In this document: positions 13,215 to 19,784 of the stretch, one piece after another
Layout: the number at the start of each line of letters is the position of its first letter
Position numbering within the stretch: the first letter of the stretch is position 1
NCBI GenBank assembly: GCA_017547205.1
Contig: JAFYQH010000016.1
Location: forward strand, 1 to 38,795
Direction of reading: 5' to 3'
Length of the DNA: 38,795 bases
DNA from: Bacteroidaceae bacterium
Lineage (GTDB): Bacteria > Bacteroidota > Bacteroidia > Bacteroidales > Bacteroidaceae
Notes under the pieces: generated by a model
Databases searched by the model: none
Told to the model about the DNA's origin: nothing
What the model saw: only the letters and a program-made list of their open reading frames with translations
Position numbers and translations under genes: made by a program

Positions 13215-13293
13215 AAGCAACACAGCGGAAAGACCTGCCGGCACTACGCTTGACGAGATGCTGACGGCATTGTCGAGCCGTTAATTACTGTAC

Positions 13294-13375
13294 TTGACAG
13301 CACTCGCTGTTGGTGACCCACGCGGTGCGAACTACGTCCGCACTTCGCGTGACCTTTCACCGCTCGTGATGTCGA
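13294..13375. repeat. Structured 3'-end element, copy 1
   Basis: First of four elements sharing one fold. Outer stem 13294-13307 with 13362-13375 (11 of 14 paired). Middle stem GGTGA (13312-13316) with TCACC (13357-13361). Six-bp stem CACGCG (13319-13324) with CGCGTG (13346-13351). A 2-nt bulge TT (13344-13345). Five-bp stem GTGCG/CGCAC (13325-13329 / 13339-13343). A 9-nt loop. The middle stem here is GGTGA/TCACC, where copies 3 and 4 have GCAA/TTGC, which is a compensated change. Confidence 0.65.
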
Positions 13376-13391
13376 GTAATTAGATACTGTA

Positions 13392-13409
13392 CTCCAAAGG
13401 TTTCCCCAT
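13392..13409 (-). pseudogene. Duplicated 3'-terminal fragment of the small-protein gene
   Basis: TCCAAAGGTTTCCCCA at 13393-13408 is identical to 13582-13597, the end of the 54-codon gene on the minus strand. It would read 'WGNLW' in frame, preceded by 'RK' instead of 'GE'. Only about 16 bp are retained. It sits between element copies 1 and 2, paralleling the DUF3109 case near 18.9 kb. Confidence 0.55.
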
Positions 13410-13413
13410 TTTC

Positions 13414-13484
13414 GATGTGCGTTTATCGCATCCCGCAGGGCACGAGTTATACCCGTGCTACCTGCGACTATTGCTACACACATC
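13414..13484. repeat. Structured 3'-end element, copy 2
   Basis: Same fold as the other copies. Outer stem GATGTG (13414-13419) with CACATC (13479-13484). Middle stem GCA (13428-13430) with TGC (13472-13474). Six-bp stem CGCAGG (13434-13439) with CCTGCG (13461-13466). Bulge TA (13459-13460). Five-bp stem GCACG/CGTGC (13440-13444 / 13454-13458). A 9-nt loop. The stems differ in sequence from copy 1 yet remain paired. Confidence 0.65.
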
Positions 13485-13530
13485 AAAGGAGCCACTACGT
13501 GTCTCCACTTCGTTCGTGGGGAACCTAATA

Positions 13531-13579
13531 TAAATCAAAATAGAGGGGACTTGAATCAAGCCCCCTCTATTTTGATTTA
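13531..13579 (-). terminator. Terminator of the small-protein gene, overlapping its stop codon
   Basis: The arms TAAATCAAAATAGAGGGG... (13531-13554) and their complement (13556-13579) form a 24-bp inverted repeat with one imperfect position (13549 vs 13561). That position is a G-U wobble in a minus-strand transcript but A-C in a plus-strand one, which favours function for the minus-strand gene. The stop codon of the small gene (13577-13579) lies inside the stem. Confidence 0.78.
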
Positions 13580-13741
13580 CTTCCAAAGGTTTCCCCACTC
13601 ACCGCGGTTGCCACCTGAGAGCTGACCGCCGTTTGAGGTATCTACAGTCTTTTCATTATCCAATTTCAATGAAGCAGCGAGCATTGCCTCCGCCTCAACG
13701 TTTACCTCTACCATGAGAGGTGATACATATATCTTCTTCAT
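13577..13741 (-). CDS. 54-residue small protein ending in GEWGNLWK
   Basis: A short gene, easily missed by length cut-offs. The product starts 'MKKIYVSPLMVEVNVEAEAM' and continues with a Leu/Ala/Ser-rich stretch, 'DNEKTVDTSNGGQLSGG' and the terminal 'NRGEWGNLWK'. The N-terminal 'MKK.Y..P...V' and the C-terminal Gly/Trp motif recall an abundant class of small Bacteroidales proteins with no assigned function; this resemblance is from memory. It has no typical signal peptide or membrane helix. Support for being real: intact frame, a strong terminator overlapping the stop, and a duplicated fragment of its end nearby. No RiPP maturation enzyme or exporter is adjacent, so I do not call it a precursor peptide. 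No clear -7 box was found. Confidence 0.7.
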   Translation of the reverse strand: MKKIYVSPLMVEVNVEAEAMLAASLKLDNEKTVDTSNGGQLSGGNRGEWGNLWK

Positions 13742-13785
13742 ATATCGTTATTGTTTTTATTCGTTTTTTATTTTTAGGCAAATTC

Positions 13786-13838
13786 AAAACTCCCACTCTT
13801 TTTAAAGAGGGGGTGTCACAAAGTGACGGGGGAGTTTT
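13786..13838. repeat. Three-way-junction repeat, copy 1
   Basis: Outer stem AAAACTCCC (13786-13794) pairs with GGGAGTTTT (13830-13838). It encloses two hairpins: CTCTTT/AAAGAG (13796-13801 / 13804-13809) and GTCAC-aaa-GTGAC (13815-13819 / 13823-13827). A related copy lies at 16831-16882 in the same orientation, so the pair brackets the Fn3-associated protein gene. This copy would lie in the leader of the 54-codon gene. Confidence 0.6.
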
Positions 13839-13863
13839 GTTCTTATGTCTAAAATTTATTTCA

Positions 13864-13886
13864 CGAGGGCGGGCGAACCGCCCTCG
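13864..13886. terminator. GC-rich hairpin, possible terminator
   Basis: CGAGGGCGG (13864-13872) and CCGCCCTCG (13878-13886) form a perfect 9-bp stem with a 5-nt loop. T-rich sequence follows on the plus strand and an AT-rich stretch lies on the other side. It is about 155 bp beyond the stop of the 833-residue protein gene and could stop that transcript. The bases between (13887-14041) contain no gene I can support. Confidence 0.4.
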
Positions 13887-14041
13887 CTTTCCTATTTTCT
13901 AATAAGTGAGATAAAAAGGTTCAAATACAAGGCTTAGGCAAACGAGTGAAACGCAAAGCTCGCTTTAGCGTTTTACAACGAGTGCAGCAAAGGCCCGCCA
14001 AAGGCAGCCGGCTTACGAAGCCATAATCCTCTTTTAATCAC

Positions 14042-16543
14042 TTATTTAACGAGCACTTTTTTGCCGTTGATAATGTAAATACCAGGAGCAGTTACATTCT
14101 CTACACGGCGGCCAGCGAGGTCGTAGATTTCTTCTTTCTCATTTCTGATTTCTACTTTCTCAACGCCGGTTGTACCGTCCCAATCAAAGCCGTAGAATGC
14201 AGCGGTCTTGTTAGGCACTGCACTTGCAGGCAAGTATGCCTTGTTGGCGTTGTTAAGCCAAGCAGTACCATCCAACTGGTTCTTTTCTGCTCTGTAAAGG
14301 CCTACTACACCGTCAAGCTTAGAAAGAACATAAGCCTCTTCCTCAATGTTTTCGTTGAAGAGTGTACCCTCCAAGAGGTTGCCTGTAACGTCAGCGGTTG
14401 CAGTTGCTTCATTGAAGAGCTTATACTCTCCAGCAGGAGCCTTAATGATAACACCCGTGTTTGCAGGGAGAACACCTGTTACCTGAGTCAAAGATACCCA
14501 ACCGTCATTTACTGTTGTTACTGTATATGCTTCCACTGCAGATGGAATTCTTGCATTGAAACCAAGGTACAATGTAGCATAGCCGGCTTCTGTTACTGTA
14601 AGGGTGTGATATAATGGAAGTTCCTCTACATATTTGTAAAGCTGAACAGACTCACCATAAGTCAAATTATAATAGCGGAAACGCATATCACCTTTAGCTG
14701 AATTAAATCGAAGATATCTTCCAGCCTCAATATTAACACCATCAGCAGTGAACTCAATAGTATTTAATTGCGGTTCACTTGCATTAGTGTTTAGTTTATT
14801 TGAATTAGATGTACCATAAATGTAACCGTCCGCAGTCTTTACTGAGTAACCGCCTTCCATTGTTGCAATTGTAACAGCAACAGCATCAATCTCACTGTTT
14901 GCCTTAATTACATCACCATCAGTTACAGCAGATACATAACCGTTAGCCTCGTCCTTACCGTTGAACACGTATGCATCTGTACCTTCCTCATAAACGATAA
15001 GATACTTACCGCTCCAGTCTGCAGGAGCAGAAACAACCTTTATATAATAACCAGTAGTTTCCTCAACAACAAACAGAGTATATGTAGCAGTTGCCATTTC
15101 GCTTGCGCCAACCTCGTTTACAGCAACAGCCTTAACGGTTGTTGTAGCAGTGATTTCAAATGGCTCGGTATATTCTACGCGAGTAGCCGATGTTGCGGGG
15201 TCACTCTCGTCTGTTGTGTAATAAACAGTAGCATCTGCTGCAATACCTGTAATCTCAACCAACATGCTACCCTCAAATGTTGTTGAAGCAGGAAGAACAG
15301 GAGCATTAGGAGCAACCGGAGTTACACCTGCACTTGCATCCCAAGTTATGCTGATGCTTGTCAAGTACATAGCACTGCTTGCAGAACGCATGCCAATGTA
15401 TTCATAATCGCCCTCGATTACAAGTTCTGTTGAGGTACCGCAAACAATTGTGCCAAGCAATGTACCCTGTGTTGAAGTAGAATACAAATCAGTTGCTGCG
15501 CTATACGCAGTATTCTTGCCATATACATTTAAAGTACGACCACTGCTTGTACTACTCTGCCACACAACAGCAACCTTTTTCGCCTTACCGCCAGATTTTG
15601 TTGTTACAACACCAGAATTGCTATTGTTTGAACGCAACTGAATAGCATCGTTGCTGCCGGCAGAATTACCTGCATATATTGCAGAAGAACTCACAGTCTT
15701 ATCACTCCAATTTGAATAGGTTGAACTATTCATTGTAATTCCTGTCAATTCACGATTAAGCACATCGACTACCTCGCCCTCTGCAGGAGGAGTTGCAGGT
15801 TCGTTCTTTGTATATGTTTCAGAAACAACTTCGCTTGGACCACCTTCATTAACAGCAATAGCCTTTACAGTAGTTGTCGCTGTGATTTCAAAAGGAGCAG
15901 TATATTCTGTGCTTGCCTCTGTAGGTTCTGAGCCATCAGTTGTATAATAAACGGTTGCACCTTCTGCAATATTTGCAATCGTAACAGTCATTGAGCTATC
16001 AAAATTGCAAGATGCCGGGAGGGTTGGAGCTGCAGGAGCAACTGGAGTTTCAGGCTGATCCGGTTCACCGCCTTCTGCTACATAAGTAACAGTAATAACT
16101 TTTGTTCTCAACTGAGCAGTACCTACATTTTGAATTGTAACCGCGCTAGCCTTAATTCCTGAAATAGTCAATGTTGTATTAGACCATGTTCCTGTTACCG
16201 CATTTGCACCATCAACACTATATTTTACATCGGGCGCATAGTTTGCAGAAGAAGCCGTCACTACAACTGATGTTATTTTCTTTCCCGCTTCAGCCGTAAA
16301 AGTTGCCGAATTACCATTGTTAGAACCATAATACAGTCTTAATGTACCATCCTTGTTAAAGGCTGCAGCATTCTGCGCAGAATTCTTAACATAAGAAATT
16401 GTTATACCATCAACAGTTTTGGCACCAACACTGCTTAAAGTCTCCGTGCCATACAAGTTGGCAAAGTTAAATACAGCCTCTTCCGCCTGCACACTGAACA
16501 CTGCCAGCATTACGGCAAAAATTGAAAGTAAAAATTTTTTCAT
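14042..16543 (-). CDS. Secreted multidomain protein with two chitobiase-C/Fn3-associated domains
   Basis: An 833-residue exported protein. Signal peptide residues 1-20 ('KKFLLSIFAVMLAVFSVQA'). A beta-rich module spans about 22-155. The first Fn3-associated/CHB_HEX_C-like domain is about 170-246 ('ATVYYTTDGSEPT', 'TTTVKAIAVNEGG'), a second beta-rich module about 258-402, and the second such domain about 410-490 ('ATVYYTTDESDPA', 'TTTVKAVAVNEVG'). Further beta-rich sequence follows. The C-terminal 'IYDLAGRRVENVTAPGIYIINGKKVLVK' resembles the tails of Bacteroidales surface proteins exported by type IX or related routes. No catalytic domain was recognised; a carbohydrate-binding or adhesive surface role is inference. 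It is AT-richer than the core genes, has its own promoter and hairpin leader, and is flanked by repeats. Confidence 0.8.
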   Translation of the reverse strand: MKKFLLSIFAVMLAVFSVQAEEAVFNFANLYGTETLSSVGAKTVDGITISYVKNSAQNAAAFNKDGTLRLYYGSNNGNSATFTAEAGKKITSVVVTASSANYAPDVKYSVDGANAVTGTWSNTTLTISGIKASAVTIQNVGTAQLRTKVITVTYVAEGGEPDQPETPVAPAAPTLPASCNFDSSMTVTIANIAEGATVYYTTDGSEPTEASTEYTAPFEITATTTVKAIAVNEGGPSEVVSETYTKNEPATPPAEGEVVDVLNRELTGITMNSSTYSNWSDKTVSSSAIYAGNSAGSNDAIQLRSNNSNSGVVTTKSGGKAKKVAVVWQSSTSSGRTLNVYGKNTAYSAATDLYSTSTQGTLLGTIVCGTSTELVIEGDYEYIGMRSASSAMYLTSISITWDASAGVTPVAPNAPVLPASTTFEGSMLVEITGIAADATVYYTTDESDPATSATRVEYTEPFEITATTTVKAVAVNEVGASEMATATYTLFVVEETTGYYIKVVSAPADWSGKYLIVYEEGTDAYVFNGKDEANGYVSAVTDGDVIKANSEIDAVAVTIATMEGGYSVKTADGYIYGTSNSNKLNTNASEPQLNTIEFTADGVNIEAGRYLRFNSAKGDMRFRYYNLTYGESVQLYKYVEELPLYHTLTVTEAGYATLYLGFNARIPSAVEAYTVTTVNDGWVSLTQVTGVLPANTGVIIKAPAGEYKLFNEATATADVTGNLLEGTLFNENIEEEAYVLSKLDGVVGLYRAEKNQLDGTAWLNNANKAYLPASAVPNKTAAFYGFDWDGTTGVEKVEIRNEKEEIYDLAGRRVENVTAPGIYIINGKKVLVK

Positions 16544-16593
16544 AATAATTAGATTTATAATTTGTTTTGTGATTTTCTTATCATCTCCCCTCC

Positions 16594-16635
16594 GGCTTCA
16601 AAAAGCCTCACCCTACCCCTCTCCAAAGGAGAGGG
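16594..16635 (-). promoter_or_regulatory. Two-hairpin 5' leader of the Fn3-associated protein gene
   Basis: Between the promoter and start codon lie CCCTCTCC-aaa-GGAGAGGG (16617-16635, perfect 8-bp stem) and GGCTT-caaa-AAGCC (16594-16607, 5-bp stem). The C-rich segment between them resembles a repeat I recall between genes of other Bacteroidetes. It may be a resident repeat rather than a dedicated regulator; it would nonetheless structure the roughly 110-nt leader. Confidence 0.45.
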
Positions 16636-16660
16636 AAGTATAGGTCACAATAAGCCGGCG

Positions 16661-16692
16661 CGAAGATACTGCTTTAATATATATTAACCAAA
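16661..16692 (-). promoter_or_regulatory. Bacteroidetes promoter for the Fn3-associated protein gene
   Basis: On the minus strand, TTTG (16692-16689) and TATCTTCG (16668-16661, one change from TAnnTTTG) are separated by exactly 20 bp. The predicted leader is about 110 nt. Confidence 0.72.
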
Positions 16693-16830
16693 CTTTTACA
16701 CATAAATATACCCCTCAAAATTTCTACAAAACGCCTAAAAATCAGGGACAAAAGCAATGTATTGACGAATGAACGCAATCAATTTATTTTTGACAGAAGT
16801 ACAGAAGCACAAAATGGGCGAAAAGGAAAA

Positions 16831-16882
16831 AACTCCTCCCCTCTTTGAGGTGGAGGTGGCACGAAGTGTCGGAGGGGAGCTT
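16831..16882. repeat. Three-way-junction repeat, copy 2
   Basis: Related to 13786-13838. Outer stem CTCCTC (16833-16838) with GGGGAG (16874-16879). Hairpin CCTC-ttt-GAGG (16840-16850). Hairpin GGCAC-gaa-GTGTC (16858-16870), where copy 1 has GTCAC-aaa-GTGAC. Pairing is kept despite sequence change. An open frame running through it (16769-17041) has no recognisable protein content and is not called. Confidence 0.55.
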
Positions 16883-16988
16883 TGCCTGCATTTGCGTCAG
16901 CCTTGCCCTTTTTGGCCTTACCACAAGAAACAGCAAAAATTCACTATTGTCAATAAATTGATTTTCGACACTTTAAACACTACCAAAA

Positions 16989-17017
16989 CAAAACTGCTGT
17001 TTCAGACAGCAGTTTTG
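16989..17017. terminator. Perfect 12-bp hairpin upstream of the ATPase cassette
   Basis: CAAAACTGCTGT (16989-17000) and ACAGCAGTTTTG (17006-17017) form a perfect 12-bp stem with a 5-nt loop. No gene ends nearby, so a terminator role would only insulate the cassette. The rest of 16693-17052 outside the listed repeats shows nothing I can identify. Confidence 0.4.
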
Positions 17018-17052
17018 CATAAAAGTGCTGTTTATTTTTAGCAGTCAAGCAC

Positions 17053-17204
17053 AATGCAAAATAAGCCTAAAAATTTCGCTTATTTTGCATTTGGCAGATA
17101 AACAATTATATAACAACATATTACAACTGCACTTTAATTTTAAAATAACTCTTTTTTTGAGCGAATTCAAAATTAAAGTGCACTTGTTTTATACTTTATT
17201 GAAG
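17053..17204. repeat. Long direct repeat, left copy, upstream of the AAA ATPase
   Basis: Direct counterpart of 18758-18913, roughly three quarters identical by eye. It contains two hairpins. AATGCAAAATAAGC (17053-17066) pairs perfectly with 17078-17091. TGCACTTTAATTTT (17128-17141) pairs with 17169-17182, extended by ACAA/TTGT across one mismatch. It ends TTTTATACTTTATTGAAG, matching the right copy's ending, which itself resembles the DUF3109 gene terminus. Together the copies bracket one gene. Confidence 0.72.
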
Positions 17205-17251
17205 CAAAATGCACATAATAAGCATAATAAAAACATCTTATTTTAACAATA

Positions 17252-17283
17252 TTTGCATTTTAAAACAAACTATACTATTTTTG
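17252..17283 (+). promoter_or_regulatory. Bacteroidetes promoter for the AAA ATPase
   Basis: TTTG (17252-17255) and TATTTTTG (17276-17283) with an exact 20-bp spacer match the consensus fully. Transcription would begin around 17290, leaving a leader of roughly 14 nt before ATG 17304, which also settles the start codon. Confidence 0.78.
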
Positions 17284-17303
17284 CGTTATTAAAATATGGT
17301 CTT

Positions 17304-18764
17304 ATGAAAAAACTTAGCGAACAATTGAAGGAGCAAATAATAAAAAGAATGTCGATAGACAATCCTTGGTGGATAACCTCAACAATCCCCGAAGATTATA
17401 AAAGAATGCCACCAAGGGCATATCTCAATGAGTTCTACCCACTCGTTGAGGATTCCGAAATACGACGTGCTGTTATTTTAATGGGACCTCGCCGCGTAGG
17501 AAAAACCGTAATGATTTTTCATACCATAGATAAACTTATATCGTCTGGAATAGACCCACATAAAATCATATACATATCAATAGATACCCCGATATACAAC
17601 AACACCTCACTTGAGGAACTGTTTACATACGCAAAAGAGGCTTTGTTACAAGATGAAAACCGTGAGGGTTTTTATGTTTTCTTTGACGAGATACAGTACC
17701 TTAAAAACTGGGAAGTGCATCTAAAATCATTGGTTGACACATACAGACATGTGAAGTTTGTTGCGTCAGGCTCTGCTGCAGCTGCACTCAAAATGAAAAG
17801 CAATGAAAGCGGAGCCGGCAGGTTTACCGATTTCATGTTACCGCCCCTTACTTTTTTTGAATATATAAATTTGTTGAAACTTAATTCAATAATCACAGAA
17901 AGTAGAAGCGGGATACCACCTTACGGAACAATAAACATAGACGAGCTTAACCGACACTTTATTGACTACATAAATTATGGTGGGTATCCCGAGGTCGTTT
18001 TTTCCGAAAAAATAAGACAGAATCCCGGACAATACATTAAAAACGACATTATTGACAAAGTTCTGTTAAGGGACCTACCCAGTTTATATGGAATAACAGA
18101 CATACAGGAACTTAATAGGCTGTTTGTACATATAGCATTCCGTTCTGGCAACGAATTTTCATACGAATCGCTGACAAAAGAAGCTGGAATAAAAAAAGAT
18201 GTTCTTAAGAGGTATCTTGAGTACCTCGAAGCCGCCTTTCTTATAAAGGTTGTAAACAGAATAGACCAAAATGCAAAACAGATGCAAAGGGTTACATCTT
18301 TTAAAATCTACCTGACAAACCCTTCTCTTCGTTGCGCTTTGTTTTCTCCAATCAACAGCGACGACGATTTCATGGGCAGCATGGTGGAAACGGCAATTTT
18401 TGCACAATGGATTCAAGGTGGGAAAAGCGATTTCTATTATGCCAACTGGACAAAAGGGCGAGAGAAAGGGGAGGTTGACATAGTTTGGATAGACCAAGCA
18501 ACACAGAAGCCTTATTCTCTTACTGAAATTAAATGGAGCGACAGATATGCCGAATGTCCCACAGAACTAAAATCACTCCATAAATTCCTGGAAAATAATA
18601 AAGAGAAGATGACAACCATTGCAACCACCAAAACAAAAAGTCGTAGGTACACTTTCGAAGGTAGTGATATTTTCTTTATTCCATCAGCGATATACGCCTA
18701 TTGGATTGCCGATTACCTGTACAAGAACAAGAAACAGGAACTGTTGCAATTCAACGCAATGTAA
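17304..18764 (+). CDS. AAA_14/DUF4143-type ATPase
   Basis: A 486-residue ATPase of the STAND-like AAA_14-DUF4143 group that is highly multiplied in Bacteroidales. Walker A GPRRVGKT is at residues 61-68 and Walker B 'FYVFFDEIQYL' at about 123-133. A winged-helix-like middle ('SYESLTKEAGIKKDVLKRYLEYLE') precedes the C-terminal region with 'GEVDIVWI...SLTEIKWSD', a PD-(D/E)xK-like pattern (Asp, then ExK). Family members are suspected of roles in mobile DNA or defence, but no function is established. The gene is clearly AT-richer than the chromosomal core, has its own near-perfect promoter, and is flanked by direct repeats; the right repeat overlaps its stop. I infer lateral acquisition as a single-gene cassette. 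Confidence 0.88.
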   Translation: MKKLSEQLKEQIIKRMSIDNPWWITSTIPEDYKRMPPRAYLNEFYPLVEDSEIRRAVILMGPRRVGKTVMIFHTIDKLISSGIDPHKIIYISIDTPIYNNTSLEELFTYAKEALLQDENREGFYVFFDEIQYLKNWEVHLKSLVDTYRHVKFVASGSAAAALKMKSNESGAGRFTDFMLPPLTFFEYINLLKLNSIITESRSGIPPYGTINIDELNRHFIDYINYGGYPEVVFSEKIRQNPGQYIKNDIIDKVLLRDLPSLYGITDIQELNRLFVHIAFRSGNEFSYESLTKEAGIKKDVLKRYLEYLEAAFLIKVVNRIDQNAKQMQRVTSFKIYLTNPSLRCALFSPINSDDDFMGSMVETAIFAQWIQGGKSDFYYANWTKGREKGEVDIVWIDQATQKPYSLTEIKWSDRYAECPTELKSLHKFLENNKEKMTTIATTKTKSRRYTFEGSDIFFIPSAIYAYWIADYLYKNKKQELLQFNAM

Positions 18765-18913
18765 AAATAAGCCTAAAAATTTTGCTTATTTTGCATTTAG
18801 GGAATAAATGCCTATATAGCAACGCATTACGAGTGCACTTTAATTTTAAAAATGCTCTTTTTTGAACAAATTAAAAATTAAAGTGCACTCGTTTTATGCT
18901 TTGTCGATTGAAG
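18758..18913. repeat. Long direct repeat, right copy, overlapping the ATPase stop codon
   Basis: Starts in the last codons of the ATPase and matches 17053-17204 in the same orientation. Hairpin 1: AAAATAAGC (18764-18772) with GCTTATTTT (18784-18792), directly after the stop and able to act as its terminator. Hairpin 2: a perfect 19-bp stem, 18829-18847 with 18874-18892 (ends ACGA/TCGT where the left copy has ACAA/TTGT, a compensated change). It runs into a duplicated DUF3109 3' end. Confidence 0.75.
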
Positions 18914-18926
18914 AGGCCTTGCTTAA
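18903..18926 (-). pseudogene. Duplicated 3'-terminal fragment of the DUF3109 gene
   Basis: GTCGATTGAAGAGGCCTTGC here matches ATCGATTGAAGAAGCCTTGC at 19104-19123, the end of the DUF3109 coding sequence. It would read 'KQGLFNR' where the gene reads 'KQGFFNR', then Gln instead of the stop. A shorter, more diverged copy (GTCGATTACAGAAAG) lies at 19009-19023, between element copies 3 and 4. Confidence 0.65.
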
Positions 18927-18934
18927 AACAATTG

Positions 18935-19009
18935 ACAAGCCTTGCTCTTCGCAACCCGCGGGGCGTGACTGATTCCACGCTACCCGCGACTAATTGCTGC
19001 AAGTCTTGT
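18935..19009. repeat. Structured 3'-end element, copy 3
   Basis: Outer stem ACAAGCCTTGC (18935-18945) pairs with GCAAGTCTTGT (18999-19009), one mismatch; it can extend outward by AATTG with CGATT. Middle stem GCAA (18951-18954) with TTGC (18994-18997). Six-bp stem CGCGGG (18957-18962) with CCCGCG (18983-18988). Bulge TA (18981-18982). Five-bp stem GCGTG/CACGC (18963-18967 / 18976-18980). An 8-nt loop. Confidence 0.72.
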
Positions 19010-19023
19010 CGATTACAGAAAGT

Positions 19024-19109
19024 AATTGACAAAGCACACTGTCCGCAACCCACGCGGGATGAATTGCATCCATCCTACGCGTGACCAATTGCTGTGTGCT
19101 TTATCGATT
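19024..19109. repeat. Structured 3'-end element, copy 4, including the DUF3109 stop codon
   Basis: Outer stem AATTGACAAAGCACAC (19024-19039) pairs with GTGTGCTTTATCGATT (19094-19109), one mismatch and one G-T. The right arm includes the DUF3109 stop codon (19101-19103) and its last two codons. Middle stem GCAA (19045-19048) with TTGC (19089-19092). Six-bp stem CACGCG/CGCGTG (19051-19056 / 19078-19083). Bulge TA (19076-19077). Five-bp stem GGATG/CATCC (19057-19061 / 19071-19075). A 9-nt loop. In the minus-strand mRNA this is the 3' hairpin and may terminate transcription. Confidence 0.75.
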
Positions 19110-19688
19110 GAAGAAGCCTTGCTTCTCCAATTCATCGGCAACAACCAAAAGCTCCTTATACCACTCTTCGCCGAAGCGTTCTATAAGGGGTTCTTTAAGG
19201 AATTCATAAGCGCGGATGCCTTTGCGGCGGCCTTTGATGAATGCACTGCTGCACACGTCCCACTTATGCAGGTTGACGCCTATCATATCGCCTACCTTAC
19301 GCAAGCGCACCGGGTATAGGTAGCACGAAATGGGCTTACGCCATGTGGTGCGTCCCTCGCGATAGGCCTTGTCGATGAGACAGATGCAGTTGCCACTCTC
19401 GTCGTGCGATGCGAAGACACAGTCCTTGCCGTTGACGATTGATGTCACCAGGTCGCCATCGCGGTCGTTGTACACTACACCCTGTTCTTCGACGACAGCA
19501 CGCGCCTCGGGAGTCATCTCGTCACCGATGACCTCATACGCTTCCTCAAGCTTGTCTACCTCGTCCATCAGCACCGGCGCGCCGGCATCGCCCTCGACAC
19601 AGCATGCGCCCTTGCAATGCGTGAAGTTGCAGCAGAAGTATTCCTGAAAGAGGTCGAACGAGACTATTGTATTACCTATCTGTACCAT
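19101..19688 (-). CDS. DUF3109 family cysteine-rich protein
   Basis: A 195-residue cytoplasmic protein typical of Bacteroidetes DUF3109. Conserved cysteines appear as 'CCNFTHCKGACCVEGDAGAPV' near residues 16-36, then 'CVF', 'GNCICLID', 'PISCYLYPVR' and 'CSSAF'. The pattern resembles the YkgJ-like cysteine-cluster proteins thought to bind zinc or an Fe-S cluster; biochemical function is unproven. I chose ATG 19688, which gives the usual 'MVQIGNTIVSFDLF' start; the upstream extension in the same frame overlaps a palindromic intergenic region. Its final codons are the template of nearby duplicated fragments, and its stop lies in a structured repeat. Confidence 0.85.
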   Translation of the reverse strand: MVQIGNTIVSFDLFQEYFCCNFTHCKGACCVEGDAGAPVLMDEVDKLEEAYEVIGDEMTPEARAVVEEQGVVYNDRDGDLVTSIVNGKDCVFASHDESGNCICLIDKAYREGRTTWRKPISCYLYPVRLRKVGDMIGVNLHKWDVCSSAFIKGRRKGIRAYEFLKEPLIERFGEEWYKELLVVADELEKQGFFNR

Positions 19689-19730
19689 AATATCAACGGG
19701 AATGGCTAAAAAGCAATCTGCTGCGTTACA

Positions 19731-19784
19731 CGAAACCCCAAACATCCTCATTTACTCTAGTAAACTGCGGTATTTGGGGTTTCG
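19731..19784. repeat. Nested palindrome between gpmI and the DUF3109 gene
   Basis: CGAAACCCCAAA (19731-19742) pairs perfectly with TTTGGGGTTTCG (19773-19784). Inside the loop a second stem, TTTACT-ct-AGTAAA (19751-19764), is also perfect. It lies downstream of gpmI on the minus strand and could be its terminator, although no long T-tract follows. It also lies just upstream of DUF3109, where it would affect that gene's leader. Confidence 0.5.

Follow-up and report, generated by a model that had tools for sequence, protein, structure and literature searches.

Four hairpin elements of one design stand in two pairs within a 38,795-nucleotide stretch of Bacteroidaceae DNA (contig JAFYQH010000016.1, here called the window), which raises the question of what they are and how they came to lie behind genes. 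They belong to a family, E, with an element length of 86 nt. E1 (13292–13377; R1 91.8 bits, R2 86 bits), E3 (18930–19014; 96.9 and 88.4 bits) and E4 (19024–19109; 98.8 and 94.7 bits) are full-length, and E2 (13407–13491; 78.8 and 72.3 bits) represents a subfamily with degenerate ends. All four are annotated on the plus strand (gene-sense for E1 being minus), and all fold with the positions, stems, two-base bulge on the 3' side (TT, TA, TA, TA) and 8–9 nt loops given in a preliminary description of the sequence.

The placement behind two unrelated genes, as originally stated, was also found: read in gene sense, E2 and E1 come after a 54-aa ORF (13577–13741, minus; translation ending in GEWGNLWK), and E4 and E3 come after a DUF3109 gene (ORF 19101–19751, minus; PF11307, E = 1.4e-73), whose stop codon falls inside the end of E4. 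Beyond E4 and E3, the final bases of the DUF3109 gene recur as a displaced copy (18901–18924, minus), recognized from a direct repeat, D4 (18886–18924 and 19086–19124, 82%), and from orthologous loci. A further hairpin, H, composed of the DUF3109 coding end and the first three gene-sense bases of E4, occupies 19107–19131 (minus; stem score 8.5). On its gene side E1 has a repeat (13370–13393) with a far-side partner at 13271–13294 (direct repeat D12, 79%), and a candidate truncated fifth copy, comprising the 3' half only, was picked out by eye at 13236–13278 (plus), where the match (8.7 bits, E = 2.0, at 13248–13278) is not significant.

Conserved fold of the element

Folding energies of the four copies lie 3.4 to 4.7 standard deviations below those of dinucleotide shuffles, and for each copy none of 200 shuffles was as good; the lowest-energy fold of E2 contains the inner and apical stems and lacks the outer ones. 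A structure of 31 pairs, written by hand on the alignment of the window copies, consists of standard pairs to 93.4%, with two-sided changes at 19 of the 31 pairs and one-sided-only variation at none. Neither its standard-pair fraction nor its covariation score was matched in 500 shuffles of the alignment, and sliding the structure by 1–3 columns lowers the pairing to 27–48%. The outer stem, at 16 pairs (alignment columns 3–18 with 73–88), is longer than had initially been seen. In ten other genomes, 125 distinct copies show two-sided changes at 27 of the 31 pairs and a covariation score of 0.533 (shuffles give 0.196, slid structures no more than 0.104), these values being biased towards the model to which the alignment was fitted. 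Covariation in both sets bears out the proposal that the fold itself has been kept by evolution. The unpaired bases are conserved at 89–99%, and the consensus runs from TTGACA to TGTCGA, with conserved TTGAC/GTCGA ends and variable outer bases. In agreement with the initial impression that the form belonged to no familiar family, no Rfam family reached its gathering score at the elements in a search covering the window.

Near copies of E differ mostly by one-sided pair changes (61 versus 7 two-sided in one set, 7 versus 0 in another), which argues that inserted copies decay base by base and that it is the spreading lineage that keeps the fold. The same counts led us to reject template switching between the two arms as the source of the covariation in E; it is still a candidate origin for H. 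Wobble pairs are rare (~65 G.T cells versus 143 A.C cells among 3808, one conserved T.G column excluded), and, since A.C corresponds to G.U on the opposite, gene-sense strand, these mismatch counts lean weakly towards a fold that may act as RNA or single-stranded DNA of that strand.

Distribution and multiplication

The genome of the window carries 24 copies. The expectation that related genomes would hold further ones was borne out in all 36 other genomes of the genus, at 1 to at least 73 copies each, with 60–67 copies in each of the high-copy genomes G020, G031, G033 and G036. Thus E was matched in 37 of 37 genomes of the genus versus 0 of 24 genomes of other families, and in a scan at lower sensitivity, covering 393 genomes of the order, only two outside the genus matched. 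Within single genomes, 87 pairs of copies (59 elements, 9 of 17 genomes) are at least 93% identical and have unrelated far flanks, a combination indicating that E is mobile. E is dispersed and has recently multiplied in several genomes, behaving as the REP-type mobile repeat that had been suggested from its resemblance to REP/BIME sequences, the proposed connection with RAYT apart. An origin from a virus, phage or plasmid was rejected, as one exact E pattern matched no viral contig and a BLAST search with one E query returned nothing from phages and plasmids.

Gene ends and the adjoining hairpin

E shows a preference for the 3' ends of genes and for one orientation there: in the 150 bp that follow stop codons it lies against the gene 59 times and with the gene 16 times (p = 6e-7). 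It is also associated with repeated gene ends and with an H that ends exactly at its core. Stems scoring at least 8 occur on the gene side of 56 of 196 elements, as compared to 7 on the far side and 1 after shuffling, and in 36 of the 51 cases with a second hairpin ahead of E the best stem of H ends exactly before CGA, at the core of E. The gene 3' end is repeated beyond E at 9 of the 59 gene ends with E against the gene versus 0 of 552 gene ends free of E; by our count these nine rows represent five distinct genes (four rows are DUF3109 orthologues, and L046 and L047 look like one gene). Two of these figures count against the explanation that we prefer below, namely that the long repeat is present at only 9 of 59 gene ends, and an exact-boundary H scoring at least 8 at only 37 of 143 elements.

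The triplets flanking E are inverted, not direct, in 94 of the 143 elements examined for them, and no fixed-length target-site duplication directly flanking E was found in this set. Direct repeats around E range from 3 to ~100 bases and are located beyond H; a repeat of three bases, between the start of H and the bases after E, is expected in part because both are complementary to the same triplet.

The few E-free orthologues that could be read at the DUF3109, dnaG and guaA ends have no H, which argues weakly against H being a pre-existing terminator; as a counterexample, at L216 a smaller terminator with a coding 5' arm is present where there is no E, so that some H could be ordinary terminators. 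At the galE locus the displaced end bears the native terminator, and the incoming part consists of E, a different terminator and the in-frame end. The same picture would result from exchange with another species. Simple tandem duplication of a gene end together with E was rejected because the two galE ends bear different terminators.

Search for a mobilizing enzyme

The suggested link to RAYT/TnpA-REP-type transposases was not supported. Y1_Tnp (PF01797) was detected in 5 of 41 genomes of the genus, which are 55–98% complete, so that absence is not proof; it was not found in the drafts of the four high-copy genomes, and none of the five Y1 loci, taken with flanks of ~1.5 kb as far as the contig extends, contains an R1 or R2 match. 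With Y1 genes this rare and E not beside them, a mobilizer of the RAYT or IS200 type is not supported as the general cause. A RAYT-like protein (with NHLH, WQ and YIHNNP) is present in 2 of 44 genomes, G004 and G019. Copying of a terminated mRNA onto E by a reverse transcriptase likewise found no support, PF00078 being present in 18 of 44 genomes and not found in the high-copy G020, G030 and G031. The guaA integrative element with a serine recombinase was also considered; a match or fragment of this recombinase occurs in 20 of 44 genomes and close full-length forms in three only (G015, G063 and G067), and we regard the element as sharing a site with E rather than mobilizing it. No recurring transposase was seen in the 25 largest clusters of 280 ORFs near E, nor any transposase on reading the ORFs beside most copies in the genome of the window and beside those of G019. 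Overall, no mobilizing enzyme for E was found across the Y1, RAYT-like, reverse transcriptase, serine recombinase and neighbouring-ORF searches.

Proposed mode of spread and alternatives

E is probably a non-autonomous mobile repeated DNA hairpin, nearly confined to one genus of uncultured gut Bacteroidales, with fold-back insertion as the less certain part of this explanation. The spreading form would be a folded single strand, recognized by way of unpaired positions that are conserved (CC ahead of the inner stem, the first loop base A, the bulge T and GAC after the inner stem); copies losing the fold would stop spreading and then decay. Insertion may, less certainly, proceed through fold-back synthesis of DNA that starts at a 3' end close to the stop codon. 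The growing strand would read E, fold back and copy the adjoining gene end in inverted form, giving H, and would then return to the template and copy the gene end again, giving the displaced gene end. Fold-back synthesis, although unproven, is the mechanism that we prefer; if real, it would join REP-type mobile DNA with template-switch mutation and provide a route for bacteria to change C-termini and terminators. E itself extends the range of structured mobile repeats by a large family that is almost restricted to one genus and for which no mobilizing enzyme was found, and it supplies many natural repeated gene ends, one of them with a clear before and after state. A stronger version, in which the hairpin spreads by itself with no dedicated transposase, appears quite unlikely. 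Here a 3' end under replication would jump to E and copy it, the hairpin would fold the new strand back on its template, and polymerase of the host would copy the gene end first inverted and then direct, every insertion thus leaving behind H and an additional gene end. If this is true, genes gain in this way new C-termini and terminators, such as are seen at galE, DUF3109, ribH-like and surface-protein genes.

An ordinary REP- or MITE-type repeat, served by a RAYT, another HUH or other transposase that is rare, lost or unassembled, and acquiring repeated ends and H later via slippage or template switching at a stalled hairpin, is conceivable though unlikely. E shares with the REP, BIME and REPIN sequences of RAYT systems the architecture of a short bulged hairpin, extragenic, clustered, recently multiplied and present in many and variable numbers of copies, and the RAYT-like protein of G004 and G019 has motifs of the Bacteroidetes subclass 2.6, said in an excerpt of the source to be flanked by atypical structures (PMC6006769). 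On the other hand, with its 86 nt and three helices E exceeds the 20–40 bp given for REPs in an excerpt of PMC3733652. RAYT-like genes are found in few genomes and none beside E, neither they nor Y1_Tnp were detected in the four high-copy drafts, and all five Y1 loci are devoid of E.

E could instead be a recombination site of an integron-like or integrative system, where a circular gene end plus E, with or without cargo, integrates at the homologous end and restores the gene. The order gene end, E, displaced gene end does resemble such a target-restoring cassette; at guaA in L347, the gene is separated by E from an element that has a tyrosine integrase and a serine recombinase, serine-recombinase gene ends come after E in several genomes, and at L116 three copies of E stand between complete and partial versions of a single small gene. 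This reading is nevertheless very improbable, given that close serine recombinases of full length occur in just three genomes and E in all 37, and that in L306, L348 and L349 the element occupies guaA with no E at this junction. The core motif of integron attC sites is GTTRRRY. Like attC sites and CALINs, E is a hairpin behind genes whose paired bases vary while the fold stays, with cassette-like repeats, but the GTT core was not seen at its consensus ends, and conservation falls on the inner hairpin instead of the base. Similarly improbable is a structured RNA of 3' untranslated regions (terminator, stabilizer or regulator) that is not primarily mobile DNA; the location directly behind stop codons, mainly in one orientation, would suit it, as would the small surplus of mismatches that read as G.U in gene sense, whereas the variation in copy number between related species, the recent dispersal within genomes, the tandem arrays, the scarcity of wobble pairs and the lack of an Rfam match in the window all speak against it. 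A bacterial spacer with strong covariation is not necessarily a functional RNA.

Relation to other repeats and mutational processes

As a mobile DNA hairpin, E resembles bacterial MITEs in being small and non-autonomous with inverted-repeat ends, but the bases at its termini differ from copy to copy while remaining complementary, and no parent transposase was found. Neither a GTAG nor a CGTC tetranucleotide tag is present at its consensus ends. The CGTC-tagged REPs, which an excerpt of PMC3733652 describes as palindromic, reported without a dedicated transposase and occurring also in Bacteroidetes, are likewise similar to E in the palindrome and in the transposase not being found; they differ in size and structure, and E starts in gene sense with CGAY rather than with an unpaired CGTC tag. 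Template switching at quasipalindromes, as outlined in excerpts of PMC7202029 and PMC8794818, leaves inverted copies beside hairpins as in H, but it is a mutation process and not a spreading element, and the changes among near copies of E are mostly one-sided.

Structure of the element

All four hairpin elements of the window (hereafter E, 86 nt; E1 13292..13377 and E2 13407..13491 behind a 54-aa ORF, E3 18930..19014 and E4 19024..19109 behind a DUF3109 gene) were recovered at the positions and with the folds given in the preliminary description, its stem architecture requiring amendment only in the outer stem, which comprises 16 pairs and is longer than reported there. The covariation claimed for these copies was also borne out: 93.4% of the cells of a 31-pair structure are paired, 19 pairs are changed on both sides and no pair shows change confined to one side; shuffled and slid controls come out far lower than the written structure. 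Among 125 distinct E rows, 91.1% of cells are paired, two-sided changes affect 27 of 31 pairs, and covariation scores 0.533 (vs 0.196 for shuffles and at most 0.104 for slid structures), figures obtained on an alignment fitted to the model and hence favouring the structure. Certain unpaired bases match the best-kept paired bases in conservation (CC 98%, the first loop base A 99%, the first bulge base T 89%, and the A and C of a GAC motif 99% and 98%). Wobbles are scarce (∼65 G.T and 143 A.C of 3808 cells, one conserved T.G column excluded); since A.C corresponds to G.U on the opposite strand, this leans weakly toward the gene-sense strand (that of the upstream gene).

Pair changes between near copies are mostly one-sided (61 vs 7 two-sided in 44 copy pairs; 7 vs 0 in a second set of 7); individual copies therefore decay base by base while the spreading lineage retains the fold, which is the pattern of selection for spreading. 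The same predominance counters two-arm template switching as the origin of the covariation. In several copies (L072, L073, L079, L086, L089, L109 and L116) the apical loop contains a hairpin repeat of ∼46 nt, CTCCC...GAGGGAG...GGGAG; a similar sequence occurs at 13787-13836 of the window.

Distribution and dispersal

A covariance model built from the four window copies (R1) has 24 matches in the genome of origin (2.23 Mb, 83 contigs), four of them being its source copies. The proposed search of Bacteroidales genomes gave R1 matches in each of 36 other genomes from the genus and in none of 24 from other families of the order. Counts over the 37 genus genomes sum to at least 961, with a maximum of at least 73 (G004), which equals the ceiling of 73 candidates set for any one genome. 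A second model (R2), derived from 139 matches in ten other genomes with no window sequence included, gave scores of 72 to 95 bits for the four copies of the window. The R2 scan of 393 genomes of the order was less sensitive (scoring took in 11 candidates per genome and recovered 11 of the 24 copies in the genome of origin); it gave matches in three, namely the genome of origin and two genomes of another family (G185 and G421), where the match lies behind guaA, and none in five same-family genomes of other genera. A pattern scan of named genomes returned 73 stretches, all from MAGs titled Bacteroidaceae or Bacteroidales bacterium and, going by titles, mostly from ruminant gut. Viral contigs gave no match to the same single exact pattern, nor did phages and plasmids to a BLAST query of E3 and E4.

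In 17 genomes providing 201 unique elements, 87 pairs within one genome (59 elements, 9 genomes) are at least 93% identical and have unrelated far flanks. Flank similarity drops to background within ∼25 bases to the left and ∼40 to the right, part of the shared flank being low-complexity sequence. Telomere-like, species-specific low-complexity flanks (e.g. CTAAACTCTAAACCCTAAA, CGTTAAACATTACAC) surround many copies, including L118, L120, L121 and L123 in G019 and L061, L063 and L086 in G004 and G020.

Placement and hairpin H

By simple ORF calling, 143 of 207 elements are intergenic, 31 lie at contig edges and 33 overlap an ORF (minimum 80 aa), which in many cases is short and questionable. Within 150 bp past a stop codon, E points against the upstream gene (anti) in 59 cases and with it in 16. 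Read in gene sense, E starts NNN-CGAY and ends TRTCA-NNN, and the core measures 80 nt in 104 of 143 clean-ended elements. Of these 143, 94 have flanking triplets that are complementary throughout, the per-position rates being 99%, 86% and 73% and dropping to 23% by the sixth base.

A second hairpin (H) often stands directly before the core on the gene side, taking in the three bases adjoining it. Stems scoring at least 8 occur on the gene side of 56 of 196 elements, vs 7 on the far side and 1 in shuffles, and in 36 of 51 the best stem stops right before CGA. In 32 of 37 elements with a stem of at least 8 ending at the core, the start of H recurs as a direct repeat of 3-6 bases in the sequence following E, partly because both match the same triplet. 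The gene's coding end often forms the 5' arm of H, its stop codon then falling within the loop, as at dnaG and DUF3109. The last 75 coding bases show inverted similarity to the 150 that follow (score at least 28) at 9 of 59 anti-E gene ends, 1 of 16 with E in the opposite orientation and 1 of 552 without E. H is absent from the E-less orthologues, few in number, of three genes; among these orthologues, however, L216 carries a smaller terminator with a coding arm.

Repeated gene ends

When the last 75 coding bases were aligned locally with the 700 that follow, a repeated end (score at least 44) was seen at 9 of 59 anti-E gene ends, vs none of 16 with E reversed, none of 44 with E 150-600 bp away and none of 552 without E (1 of 554 before exclusion of both rows of L244, the same locus as L093, which carries an E missing from the hit list). 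At a threshold of 36 the counts are 10 of 59 with anti E vs 1 of 552 without. The nine rows represent, by our count, five distinct genes: DUF3109 (four genomes), an S9-type peptidase, a lumazine-synthase gene (L046 and, from a similar position, L047) and two surface-type proteins (L084, L134). The far copy mostly begins exactly where E ends; in the window, 18901-18924 repeats the final bases of the DUF3109 gene past E3 and E4.

A fragment resembling the coding end of the 54-aa ORF (13577-13741, ending GEWGNLWK) lies between E1 and E2 at ∼13390-13412, and ends similar to that of this ORF adjoin E on contig C46 of the same genome. In L116 (7457-7816), three tandem E copies stand between full and partial copies of a small gene (MNKLEKQEGVYYTQNIENLP...), a cassette-like array.

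At galE of G036 the gene is followed in turn by terminator 1, E, a second gene end and terminator 2. In a set of 30 orthologous ends, the ones in G004, G020 and G031 carry terminator 2 but lack E, indicating that the in-frame end, terminator 1 and E are incoming and that the native end is the one displaced. The same arrangement would also result from homologous exchange with another species.

Possible mechanism

Dispersal, fold, orientation, H and repeated ends are observed features of E, and we infer that it propagates as a folded single strand. For its insertion we prefer, as yet unproven, fold-back synthesis near the stop codon. Synthesis would start from a 3' end near the stop codon and read E; the new strand would then fold back and copy the gene end inverted, yielding H, and on going back to its template would copy the gene end again, yielding the displaced end. 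Such synthesis would account for the complementary terminal triplets, for H ending exactly at the core and for the displaced end beginning exactly at E. It does not explain, except by decay, the copies having neither H nor a displaced end.

E behaves like REP, CGTC-REP (as described in PMC3733652) and MITE repeats, but lacks defining features, among those tested, of each. Literature searches of open-licence full texts listed no title naming such an element.

Candidate mobilising agents

The suggested link to Y1/RAYT-type transposases was not upheld, as Y1 genes occur in 5 of 41 genus genomes with no E nearby. A RAYT-like protein is encoded in 2 of 44 genomes, its motifs being those given for Bacteroidetes subclass 2.6 in PMC6006769; reverse transcriptases occur in 18 of 44. 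An IS200-type Y1 gene (148 aa; L027 1483-2298, on contig C38 of the genome of origin) adjoins a tandem array of another palindromic repeat (TAGCCCTGAAAGGG...), for which the models gave no relation to E.

The guaA 3' end is a site common to E and an integrative element (L306 5442-8950; L347 829-4334; L348 5303-8854; L349 3093-6397) encoding a tyrosine integrase, a protein without Pfam match and a serine recombinase. Gene-end fragments of the latter are scattered beside or after E in several genomes. As a mobiliser of E, this element is not general. Some guaA genes encode 435 aa (L023 151-1458, L304 12049-13356, L305 3698-5005), shorter than the GMP synthase model of 512 positions, and their glutaminase domain matches its family model over just the first 75-80 positions.

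In the window, direct repeats of ∼145 bp (17053-17202 and 18764-18907, 77-83% identical) flank an AAA_14/DUF4143 ATPase gene (17304-18764). In L079 and L118, homologues of this ATPase are found 75 bp away from E.
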